Assembly (NCBI RefSeq): GCF_016185115.1
Contig: NZ_JACPOF010000017.1
Location: 186,001 to 250,000 of the forward strand
Length of the DNA: 64,000 nt
Direction of reading: 5' to 3'
Source: Polaromonas sp.
GTDB lineage: Bacteria > Pseudomonadota > Gammaproteobacteria > Burkholderiales > Burkholderiaceae_C
A program made the position numbers and the translations under genes. The notes below the pieces were generated by a model, which worked only from the letters and a program-made list of their open reading frames with translations, was not told where the DNA came from and made no database searches. Within the stretch, counting starts at the first letter, position 1. Each line of letters opens with the position of its first letter. Positions 44,739-49,108 of the stretch are shown one piece after another.

Positions 44739-45194
44739 TTATTTGAGCGTGGCGAGGTAGGCAATCAGGTCGGCCCGCTCCTGGGCACTGTCAACCTGAA
44801 AACCCATGCGCTGGCCCCTGACCAGCTCTTCGGGGTCTTCAAGCCAGACATTGAGCGTCTGCGGCGTCCAGCGCAGGCGTGACGCCGCAAGCTCATCCGA
44901 ATATTTGTAGCCCGGCAAGCTGCCTATGCGCCTGCCCATGACACCGCGGTGCGCGGGCCCAATCCTGTTGCTGTCTACCGCGTGGCAGGCCGTGCACCGG
45001 GCCTGGTAGAGCGCCGCACCGCGCTGTACATCACCAGTTGCAGGCGTCACCCATTCACGCGCCGCCGCAGGCTTTGCTACTGCCTGCGCCTGGGCAGAAC
45101 CCATGGCGCTGAGTGACAGAAGCAGGACGGCAAGCACCCTGCCAGGTCTTTGTCCCGCCAGCCACGCCGTGCTGGCTGTACACATGAAACGCAT
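44739..45194 (-). CDS. Exported class I c-type cytochrome
   Basis: Signal peptide then GAALYQARCTACHAVDSNRIGPAHRGVMGRRIG (CxxCH) and GQRMGF (Met ligand); start at 45194. Confidence 0.92.
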   Translation of the reverse strand: MRFMCTASTAWLAGQRPGRVLAVLLLSLSAMGSAQAQAVAKPAAAREWVTPATGDVQRGAALYQARCTACHAVDSNRIGPAHRGVMGRRIGSLPGYKYSDELAASRLRWTPQTLNVWLEDPEELVRGQRMGFQVDSAQERADLIAYLATLK

Positions 45195-45406
45195 AAAACT
45201 CCCTGCCTTGGCTTCAACTGTTACCGGACCTCGGAAGGGTGCCGTCATGTTCTCAATACGTGAAGTAGTTCCGTTTTGGATTCACGGACAGACAAATTAA
45301 AAGTTTTCACAAAAAGCTGAATCCAGTTGTATCAAAAGGTACGTATAGCAGTTCGAGCATGCATTCGCATTGCACGCCGCCCCACGATTCCCCTCCAAGG
45401 ACTGCC

Positions 45407-46333
45407 ATGAACAAGAATTTTGCAATCACCCTCCTGGCCGCCTCAGCGGCACTCTCCTTCACAGGTGCCCAAGCCGAAACCGGCAAGCTGCTGCTGACCG
45501 GCGGCGTCAGCAGTGTTGATGGTGCAGCCGGTGGCGGCCTGACGCCCTGGGCCGTGATCGGCAGCAATGCCACAGACGGCGAAACCGGCTTCTCGGCATT
45601 TGCCACCCGCGCTGGCACAAAGGACTATGGCCTGACTGTTCTGGGCGCAGCCATCGGCTTCAACGATAAATATGAAATCTCGATTGCCAGCCAGGACCTG
45701 GACACGCGCAGCGCGGTTGCGGCATTGGGCCTGCCCGGCCTGCACCTGAAACAGACCATCCTGGGCGCCAAGGTGCGCGTGCTGGGCGATGCCATTCTTG
45801 ACAGCGACAGCCTCATGCCGCAGGTTGCCGTGGGCGTGGAATTCAAGAACCTCGGCAGTTCCAGGTTCGACGGGACGCTTGCGGCACTGGGCGCCAAACG
45901 CAGCGGCGTCGACCTGTATGTCAGCGCCACCAAACTTTTTCTGGGCCAGAGCCTGCTGCTCAACGGAACCCTGCGTGCAACCAGGGCCAACCAGAATGGG
46001 CTGCTCGGCTACGGCGCAACACTGGGGGGCAGCGAAAACAGCTATTCCCTGCAGCCCGAGTTCTCGGTGGGTTACCTGCTGAGCAAAAACGTGGTCGTAG
46101 GCGCCGAATACCGCTTCATGCGCAACAAGCTCGAAAAAGCGGGCAACGCCGCCTTCGGTGCGGGCTCGGGCGCATTGCGCTCACAAGACTGGAAAGACAT
46201 CTACATCGCCTGGGCACCCACCAAAAATTTCTCGCTCACCCTGGCCTATGCAGACCTCGGCGTCATCGTGCCCGCCACGACCGCCAGCCGCAAGCAGGCC
46301 GGTTACTACATCTCTGCCCAGCTCGCCTTCTGA
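45407..46333 (+). CDS. DUF3034 family outer-membrane-like protein
   Basis: Signal peptide MNKNFAITLLAASAALSFTGAQA, TGKLLLTGGVSSVDGAAGGGLTPWAVIG, amphipathic beta-strands ending in aromatic-terminated YISAQLAF. Confidence 0.8.
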   Translation: MNKNFAITLLAASAALSFTGAQAETGKLLLTGGVSSVDGAAGGGLTPWAVIGSNATDGETGFSAFATRAGTKDYGLTVLGAAIGFNDKYEISIASQDLDTRSAVAALGLPGLHLKQTILGAKVRVLGDAILDSDSLMPQVAVGVEFKNLGSSRFDGTLAALGAKRSGVDLYVSATKLFLGQSLLLNGTLRATRANQNGLLGYGATLGGSENSYSLQPEFSVGYLLSKNVVVGAEYRFMRNKLEKAGNAAFGAGSGALRSQDWKDIYIAWAPTKNFSLTLAYADLGVIVPATTASRKQAGYYISAQLAF

Positions 46334-46377
46334 TCAGGCCGGCACCACACAACATCAACACATATTCAGGACTCACC

Positions 46378-46818
46378 ATGAGAAAAACACTTGTTTCCCT
46401 GGCTATCGGTGCATCGCTTTTGGTGGCGGGTACGTCTTTCGCGCAGATGGCGCAGCAAGGCGACCAGCTCTACAGGGCCTTCGGTGAAAAAGCCGGCCTC
46501 GTCGCCCTGATGGATGACTTCATGGTCCGCCTGCTGGCCGACCCACGTACCGGCCCGCACTTCAAGCCGGCGAACCAGCAGCGCGTGAAAGAGCAGCTGG
46601 TAGACCAGTTCTGCGCGCTCGGCGGTGGCCCCTGCGTCTACAAGGGTGCCGACATGAAAAGCTCGCACGCCAACCTGGACATCACGAAGTCAGACTTCCA
46701 TGCACTGGTTGAAGTGCTGCAGCAAAGCATGGATGCCAAAGGCATTCCGTTCACGAAACAAAACCAGATGCTGGCGCTGCTGGCGCCCATGAACCGCGAC
46801 ATCATCACGCCGAAATAA
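46378..46818 (+). CDS. Group 1 truncated haemoglobin with signal peptide
   Basis: MRKTLVSLAIGASLLVAGTSFAQ then LYRAFGEKAGLVALMDDFMVRLLADPRTGPHF..., KEQLVDQFCALGGGPCVYKGADMKSSHANLDIT (proximal His). Confidence 0.9.
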   Translation: MRKTLVSLAIGASLLVAGTSFAQMAQQGDQLYRAFGEKAGLVALMDDFMVRLLADPRTGPHFKPANQQRVKEQLVDQFCALGGGPCVYKGADMKSSHANLDITKSDFHALVEVLQQSMDAKGIPFTKQNQMLALLAPMNRDIITPK

Positions 46819-46830
46819 GCTGACACCATC

Positions 46831-47490
46831 ATGAAAAAAACCCTGCTCCTGACCACCCTGTACGCCGCCTGTACGCTGGCGTCTGCCGGCAACCTGGTCG
46901 TGTCTGTCATCGACAGGGACGGCAAACCAGTGCAGGACGCCATCGTGGTGGTGATACCGGCCAACAAATCGGTGTTGCCCAAAACAGCGCTGCCCGCAGA
47001 GGCCGGCATCGTGCAGGAGAAGATGCAGTTCATACCGGCGGTATCACTGGTGGGATCGGGCGCAAGGATCAGGCTTTCAAATAACGACCCCTGGAACCAC
47101 CACGTACGTTCTTCACCTGCAGGGGCAGAGCAGTTCAACTCCAGCAAAGTCGGTTTTGACATGATGATCGAAGGCAAACCGGAAGGCAAACCTGCCAAAA
47201 CAGCAGACATCACGCTCGACAAACCCGGGGTCGTGGTCGCCAACCTGCTGGGCTGCTACATCCACGGTTCCATGCGCGGCTACATCTATGTGAGCGAATC
47301 GCCGTGGGCAGCCAAAACCAGCCCCGAGGGCTTCACCACTTTCGAGAACCTGCCCGACGGGCCGGCACAGGTCAAGGTCTGGCAGGGCGAGCAGCTGATC
47401 GACCTGGCGCCCCAGCAAACCGCCATAGGCGCGACACTGGGCAAAAACGTGTTTCAACTGACGGTGGTGCCACGCAGGCGGCGCAGCTAG
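46831..47490 (+). CDS. Exported cupredoxin/plastocyanin-like protein (methylamine-utilization-like)
   Basis: Signal peptide; NNDPWNHHVRSS and GCYIHGSMRGYIYV (C-x2-H-x2-M type-1 Cu-like ligands). Confidence 0.78.
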   Translation: MKKTLLLTTLYAACTLASAGNLVVSVIDRDGKPVQDAIVVVIPANKSVLPKTALPAEAGIVQEKMQFIPAVSLVGSGARIRLSNNDPWNHHVRSSPAGAEQFNSSKVGFDMMIEGKPEGKPAKTADITLDKPGVVVANLLGCYIHGSMRGYIYVSESPWAAKTSPEGFTTFENLPDGPAQVKVWQGEQLIDLAPQQTAIGATLGKNVFQLTVVPRRRRS

Positions 47491-47950: not shown

Positions 47951-48030
47951 AAATTGCTATGCTTTCAGTAGCTAGCCACGTACGTATTCATTGGCCTACA
48001 GCCTGATTTGGCACCTCAAAATGGCCTGAA
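47951..48030 (+). repeat. Dispersed repeat family R3, copy 3
   Basis: aaattgctatgctttcagtagctagccacgtacgtattcattggcctacagcctgatttggcacctcaaa. Confidence 0.8.
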
Positions 48031-48092
48031 AAGCATTTTTTTGGCCGCCAAAGCCCCACGCGAACCAACTTTCAAGGCACTTGGGCCTGTTT

Positions 48093-48150
48093 TTAATGTT
48101 TACGTTAAATTATTGCCGTATACATTAAATTTTTAATGTATACGACAAAA
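48093..48150. promoter_or_regulatory. Tandem TTTAAYGTNNACRTTAAA palindromes (site B)
   Basis: TTTTTAATGTTTACGTTAAATTATTGCCGTATACATTAAATTTTTAATGTATACGACAAAAA; contains palindrome GTATACATTAAATTTTTAATGTATAC; shares ACATTAAATTTTTAAYGT with site A. Confidence 0.6.
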
Positions 48151-48205
48151 ACTACCAAGTGGCTGTTTTAACGCCCTGCAAACATCGCCAAAACAAGCCA
48201 GAAAA

Positions 48206-48280
48206 CGCGTATTTCCGGTATCAAATTGGCATCCAGCCCAATGAATACGTACGTATGCAGCTACTGATTTAATAGCAAAA
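48206..48280 (-). repeat. Dispersed repeat family R3, copy 4 (inverted relative to copy 3)
   Basis: Reverse complement ttttgctattaaatcagtagctgcatacgtacgtattcattgggctggatgccaatttg aligns with copy 3. Confidence 0.8.
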
Positions 48281-49108
48281 TCACTGCCTCGCCGTGCGCA
48301 CATTGTGTGGCAGCGCCTGCGGGTGGCTGGTACGGAAGGGGTTGATGTCCAGCCCGCCGCGCCGCGTGTAACGCGCGTACACCGACAGCCTGAGCGGCTT
48401 GCAGCGCGTCCACACGTCCATGAAGATGCGCTCGACGCACTGCTCGTGAAACTCGTTGTGGTTGCGAAAGCTCACCAGGTATTGCAGCAGCCCTTCCTGG
48501 TTGATCTGCGGGCCTGAGTAACTGATCTGCACGCTGCCCCAGTCGGGCTGGCCGGTGACCAGGCAATTGCTTTTGAGCAGGTTGCTGGTCAGGGTTTCCT
48601 GCACCGGCGCTTCATCGAACTCGGCAAACAGCAGTTCGGGCATGGGCGTGAAGTGGCTGCACTCGACATCCAGCCGGTCCAGGTTCAGGCCGTCCATCTC
48701 GTGCACAGGCTCGCGGTCAAACAGCTCCGGGCCCAGGGTCTTGATACCGACGCCGGCGCCGACAGCAGCGTTCAGGTCTGCACGTATGCGCTCACGCACG
48801 TCGCGCGCGTCGGCAAAACGCGTGTTGTTAAAGCTGTTGAGGTAGAGCTTGAAGGATTTGCTCTCAACGATATTGGGCGACTCGCAGGGCACGGTGATGT
48901 GCGCCAGCGCCACCTGCGGCTTGCCGCGCAGGTTGAGCCAGCTCAGCTCGTACGCCGTCCACATGTCGGCACCGAAAAAAGGCGGCGCATCGGTCACGCC
49001 AATTTCTGCACGCTTGCCGGCACGCGGGATGGGAAACAGCAGCGACGCGTCGTACTGGTCGATATAGGCCGAAGTTTTGCCGAGCTGGGATTGTTCTGGG
49101 GTGTTCAT
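48281..49108 (-). CDS. queF: NADPH-dependent 7-cyano-7-deazaguanine reductase (long form)
   Basis: [53 protein letters not shown]. Confidence 0.96.

Follow-up and report, generated by a model that had tools for sequence, protein, structure and literature searches.

A three-gene operon of Polaromonas sp. that encodes a DUF3034 protein, a truncated haemoglobin (trHb) and a cupredoxin is most likely, judging from its sequence context, an envelope oxidative-stress operon. On balance, we favour the reading that this operon and the divergent cytochrome gene next to it specify an exported haem-copper set, which would be governed by an extracytoplasmic function (ECF) sigma factor and its RskA-type anti-sigma factor and would serve under oxidative stress at the envelope. 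Computation established the identity and order of the genes, the conservation of the ligands, the predicted barrel and cupredoxin folds and a shared promoter motif. The window, i.e., the whole 64-kb stretch of DNA that was analysed, corresponds to positions 186001-250000 of contig C20 in genome G000; its host belongs to a genus of soil and freshwater bacteria.

A published description of this cluster was not found in the literature searched, which is weak evidence of absence as subscription papers were mostly outside the search, and DUF3034 was named there in two papers only, once in each. The assignments below would provide a first testable role for DUF3034, for an exported clade annotated as 'group 1 truncated hemoglobin', and for a copper protein that goes by the name 'methylamine utilization protein'.

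The locus and its four putatively exported proteins

The following features were located in the window:

44739-45194, minus strand (open reading frame to 45248): putatively exported c-type cytochrome (CTACH; class I, c550-like), Pfam Cytochrom_C E 1.3e-9
45256-45284, minus strand: predicted ECF promoter of the cytochrome gene, TGAATCC-N17-CGTAT, with the start codon at 45194, 62 nt downstream
45318-45346, plus strand: predicted ECF promoter of the DUF3034-trHb-cupredoxin operon, TGAATCC-N17-CGTAT
45407-46333 (likely), plus strand: DUF3034 protein with a signal peptide, a predicted outer-membrane beta-barrel and a C-terminal Phe, PF11231 E 6.5e-90
46378-46818, plus strand: putatively exported group 1-like trHb, PF01152 E 4e-13, best PDB match Mycobacterium tuberculosis HbN
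46831-47490, plus strand: putatively exported cupredoxin-domain protein with a C-terminal beta domain, recognized by family profile and AlphaFold model

All four open reading frames reported in the preliminary description (44739-47490) were found in place, and each protein carries the hydrophobic N-terminal leader that had been claimed for it. The leaders were judged by eye, and those of the three plus-strand families also by a simple hydropathy rule; the lipoprotein calls of this rule over-count, and only lipoprotein leaders checked by eye are cited here. The view that four consecutive genes make up the module holds for the three plus-strand genes, which are separated by 44 bp (DUF3034 to trHb) and 12 bp (trHb to copper gene) and form the operon, but not for the cytochrome gene, which is divergent and is probably a co-regulated neighbour. 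The start of the cytochrome gene is likely at 45194, since the predicted promoter ends at 45256. The next best match to this cytochrome within its own genome reached an E value of only 8e-4.

The match of the DUF3034 protein to PF11231 spans the full length of the profile. Its AlphaFold2 model (pLDDT 84.6) is beta-rich with long antiparallel strands and resembles, in Foldseek searches, FapF, OmpG, KdgM and a COG4313 channel, and a C-terminal Phe or Tyr is present in 67 of 73 homologues. These data bear out the earlier proposal of an outer-membrane location and lead us to predict an outer-membrane beta-barrel; PF11231 is thereby given a predicted fold and, through the promoters described below, a setting of regulation.

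The trHb scored 49.9 bits against PF01152 (gathering cut-off of 21), covering positions 2-119 of the 121 in the profile. It shares with M. tuberculosis HbN and other group I trHbs the fold family, the proximal His F8 and the GGP pre-F region, whereas it differs from HbN in being putatively exported, in having two invariant cysteines (C-x6-C), in lacking Tyr-B10 and Gln-E11, and in belonging to a clade tied to DUF3034. His97 (F8; 46666-46668), Cys79 (46612-46614) and Cys86 (46633-46635) are conserved in all 80 family members aligned, whereas in cytosolic relatives position 86 is occupied by Glu or some other residue. This conservation, along with the predicted export, suggests a Cys79-Cys86 disulfide. 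A c-type or covalent haem role of these cysteines was rejected, as they are spaced as C-x6-C instead of CxxCH. The distal residues of the window protein are Met-B10, Val-E7 and Leu-E11. Across the 80 trHbs, B10 is Met, Val, Leu or Ile, rarely His, Ala or Ser, and never Tyr; E11 is Leu, Ile or Phe and never Gln; and E7 is Val, Leu, Ile or Phe, with a single Tyr. The distal pocket is thus aliphatic, unlike that of HbN.

Export of the trHb to the periplasm, as initially suggested, is likely in view of the leaders found in nearly all members of the family; clear lipoprotein leaders in several distant homologues (e.g., LLVAC|A, GLTAC|A and GLSGC|V) give independent support. The only other PF01152 gene of the genome, on contig C14, matches this profile more strongly and has no leader, which indicates that the exported trHb is an extra and not the housekeeping copy. 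In a phylogenetic tree, the DUF3034-linked trHbs form a single clade (support of 99/89) separate from cytosolic relatives. Leader-bearing trHbs devoid of C-x6-C were also noted (L178 5980-6537, L180 4345-4833 and L181 6001-6459), and exported trHbs thus occur beyond the DUF3034-linked clade.

The copper protein had no Pfam match over the cut-off, and a phmmer search of the PDB with its single sequence gave no match; only the family profile succeeded, retrieving Cu-nitrite reductase (4e-10) and amicyanin (1.5e-6). In agreement, Foldseek matched its AlphaFold2 model (pLDDT 90) to amicyanin (probability of 1.00) and plastocyanin. The C-x2-H-x2-M residues noticed previously belong to a genuine type-1 site, formed by His90, Cys142, His145 and Met148, and all four ligands, including the fourth ligand His90, are invariant in 46 of 46 sequences. 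The copper protein shares its fold and type-1 ligands with amicyanin, plastocyanin and the Cu-nitrite reductase cupredoxin domain, and its C-x2-H-x2-M motif with its upstream His has amicyanin-type spacing. Unlike these proteins, it has additional N- and C-terminal beta segments and a larger loop, and there are no mau genes among its recurrent neighbours. The latter are trHb, DUF3034, receptor and ECF/RskA genes; methylamine dehydrogenase genes are absent among them, and 'methylamine utilization protein', as RefSeq labels it, appears to be no more than a name.

Conservation of the gene order

Among 84 DUF3034 loci, sampled from the genus to the class level, DUF3034 is adjoined by a trHb gene in 76 and by the copper gene in 59. 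The order DUF3034-trHb-cupredoxin is identical in 34 loci retrieved by trHb similarity, wherever the contig reaches, with the distant L051 as the exception. Of 274 genomes sampled across the class, 15 had DUF3034, 13 a high-scoring trHb and 10 the two together; the corresponding Fisher test (p about 1e-12) overstates independence because the loci are related by descent. The conservation of the three genes is far beyond chance. RefSeq plasmids provide further examples, namely, a Caballeronia plasmid with the order DUF3034-trHb-'methylamine utilization protein'-EAL, and a plasmid of the alphaproteobacterium Novosphingobium with the same four kinds of genes. The conserved neighbourhood anticipated in the preliminary description is thus real, and since the order is kept in relatives, the idea of a module stands. 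An orthologue-like cytochrome c gene lies within 6 kb of DUF3034 in 26 of the 84 loci.

A predicted ECF regulon and its probable link to envelope oxidative stress

The preliminary description had missed the promoters. Alignment of the upstream regions of Polaromonas loci revealed the motif TGAATCC-N16/17-CGTAT, which predicts the divergent pair of ECF-type promoters between the cytochrome and DUF3034 genes listed above; the motif pair is also present in other Polaromonas loci. A scan of the operon for sigma-70 promoters gave nothing useful. Counting exact matches throughout the genome (spacer of 16-17, CGTA), with the reversed pattern as a control, we obtained 9 sites against 0 in the Polaromonas genome under study (4.8 Mb), and 11 against 0 and 9 against 0 in two congeneric genomes. 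There were no sites in a member of the family that lacks DUF3034 (G224).

In all three Polaromonas genomes the motif is found upstream of DUF3034, an ECF/RskA gene pair, MsrP (474 bits, compared to an NCBIfam equivalog cut-off of 207), an esterase lipoprotein and a DUF3455 lipoprotein, at a distance of 295 bp from the latter in G000. It precedes the cytochrome gene and a glutathione peroxidase-amine oxidase-DUF1365 operon in two genomes each, and the gene of a fasciclin protein in one. In the genome under study, this operon (L272 324-3603, on contig C3) encodes an exported glutathione peroxidase, a flavin amine oxidase and a DUF1365 protein, the ECF motif precedes both its first gene and DUF1365, and we take it to resemble photo-oxidative stress operons. 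Two further sites, on contigs C7 (spacer of 14) and C31 (no close downstream gene), have no sensible target and are probably due to chance.

The putative regulators are encoded as follows:

C20:350174-351687 (L262 7154-8688): ECF sigma factor and RskA-type anti-sigma factor, with the motif beginning 45 bp before the sigma gene

This pair is not adjacent to the operon but is located on the same contig at a distance of approximately 120 kb. The anti-sigma factors of this family are RskA_C (PF10099) proteins; the copy of this genome matched the family profile with an E value of 2e-96, and its match to the NCBIfam anti-sigma model was below the cut-off. As the motif precedes the sigma gene itself in the three Polaromonas genomes, the pair is predicted to be autoregulated and to be the master of the TGAATCC/CGTAT regulon, and the presence of the motif at this position suggests that the sigma factor controls the other promoters as well.

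In other Comamonadaceae, genes for ECF, RskA, ferritin-like, cytochrome and DUF4331 proteins adjoin the cluster, and several of them carry the motif; in G338, for example, sites adjoin the ferritin-like, DUF4331 and ECF genes predicted in the cluster. A family-profile search of the 64-kb window found no ECF, RskA, ferritin-like, DUF4331 or GGDEF-EAL genes. Loci that carry the motif tend to be those that hold ECF/RskA genes (Fisher p of 1e-7, and of 9e-7 outside Polaromonas, with related loci not being independent). Of the 84 DUF3034 loci, 35 have the motif conserved before DUF3034 and 49 lack it, and ECF control is therefore a trait of certain lineages and not general to the module.

Envelope oxidative stress is the best-supported context because repair and peroxidase genes are among those predicted to be co-regulated; the stress signal is deduced from the target genes alone. 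Stress regulons of the ECF/RskA (SigK-type) and RpoE-ChrR classes offer a comparison. The predicted Polaromonas regulon is like these in combining an ECF sigma factor and an RskA_C anti-sigma factor with fasciclin, glutathione peroxidase, DUF1365/amine oxidase, cytochrome c and MsrP as predicted targets, and differs from the RpoE-ChrR singlet-oxygen system in that the anti-sigma factor is RskA_C and not the cupin ChrR. To our knowledge, DUF3034-trHb-cupredoxin is not a target of SigK-type or RpoE-ChrR regulons. For Polaromonas, this predicts a compact regulon against oxidative stress at the envelope, in which a haemoglobin is joined to MsrP and an exported peroxidase.

In the mechanism that we propose, oxidative stress at the envelope would free the ECF sigma factor from its RskA-type anti-sigma factor, upon which it would read the TGAATCC/CGTAT promoters, and the haem-copper set would be made alongside MsrP, the exported glutathione peroxidase and the esterase lipoprotein. 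DUF3034 would act as an outer-membrane channel, and the periplasmic trHb, stapled by the Cys79-Cys86 disulfide, would bind a small ligand or peroxide in its aliphatic pocket and exchange electrons with the copper protein and cytochrome c. A haem/copper electron relay is plausible, but both the exchange of electrons among the three proteins and the substrate on which they would act are conjecture.

Receptor pairing and alternative roles

The copper protein is paired with dCache_3 receptors in other lineages, which had previously been overlooked. In a survey of 43 loci (40 selected by the cupredoxin and three from plasmid hits), a GGDEF-EAL gene lies immediately 3' of the copper gene in 26, and within 5 kb in 34. 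The receptors scanned are transmembrane proteins with a constant dCache_3-HAMP N-terminus and differing outputs, namely, GGDEF-EAL, a class III cyclase (L236 and L237) or a Ser/Thr kinase (L056 and L261). In these four loci, a MauL-like cupredoxin gene is directly upstream of the receptor gene, as it is of a gene for a HAMP-containing methyl-accepting chemotaxis protein without a dCache_3 match in L131. The order is DUF3034-trHb-copper gene-receptor in Caballeronia and copper gene-receptor-DUF3034-trHb in certain others.

The main rival to an envelope oxidative-stress operon is a sensory role, in which the cupredoxin, with the trHb, would partner a dCache_3-HAMP membrane receptor and report a ligand or the redox state to it, making up a periplasmic gas/redox sensor that feeds c-di-GMP or other outputs, and in which Polaromonas would have rewired the input parts to the ECF system. 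For the locus studied here we regard this as possible but rather unlikely. Apart from the receptor pairing, it agrees with the wider distribution of the cupredoxin as compared to trHb and DUF3034 (57 of 399 genomes at >100 bits) and with the aliphatic haem pocket, which is typical of NO/CO-selective sensors. However, there is no dCache_3-HAMP receptor beside the operon of the window, and the only dCache_3 match in this genome is weak and partial; moreover, adjacency of the copper and receptor genes is no proof of contact. The receptor often directly follows the copper gene where the motif is absent, and an adjacent GGDEF-EAL gene almost never occurs together with the motif (1 of 35), which suggests that the genes may be used differently, and the sensory reading may be valid, in other lineages.

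A broader version of this reading, which we put forward tentatively, is that the disulfide-stapled trHb and the cupredoxin, fed via the DUF3034 barrel, would form a periplasmic haem-copper front end whose readout of gases or redox conditions is passed to exchangeable outputs: through dCache_3 receptors to c-di-GMP, cyclic nucleotides, kinases or chemotaxis in most lineages, and to the ECF/RskA switch in Polaromonas and relatives. In the GGDEF-EAL lineages only, the placement of a haem protein beside a c-di-GMP enzyme recalls NO sensing by H-NOX and NosP; the likeness would be one of function, as the haem and copper proteins are putatively exported, the receptor is a transmembrane dCache_3 protein, and the systems are not homologous. 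A recurring copper-protein/receptor pair with its output domain swapped across bacteria would place a blue copper protein in a signalling role, which is seldom seen. In L234, L245, L247 and L254, the copper gene is followed by the gene of an unannotated leader-bearing protein of 400-420 amino acids, which had no Pfam match in the two cases scanned (L234 and L245) and is perhaps another outer-membrane partner in place of the receptor.

The NO/O2 detoxification system envisaged in the preliminary description, in which cytochrome c and the copper protein would re-reduce an exported trHb that acts on NO as a dioxygenase or carries O2, is improbable. It draws on the homology of the trHb to HbN and on two plausible periplasmic electron donors, one encoded in the adjoining gene and one divergently, but the Tyr-B10/Gln-E11 pair that stabilises O2 in HbN, taken here as the test for an HbN-type NO dioxygenase, is missing in 80 of 80 trHbs. 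No nitrogen-oxide genes were found among those predicted to be co-regulated, which are oxidative-repair genes and point to oxidative damage at the envelope, and the claim thus found no specific support. Least probable is metal or haem acquisition or storage, with DUF3034 importing a haem or copper complex and the two soluble proteins as carriers: an outer-membrane channel with haem- and copper-binding partners and a ferritin-like gene in 9 of 84 related loci are compatible with it, but the recurrent neighbours include no TonB-dependent receptor or haem uptake genes, and the predicted regulation follows the ECF stress regulon and not Fur or Cu control.

Downstream of the operon, the window contains two TACGTACGTA-like palindromic stretches (47978-48260) in an A+T-rich gap before a QueF-like gene on the minus strand (48281-49108).
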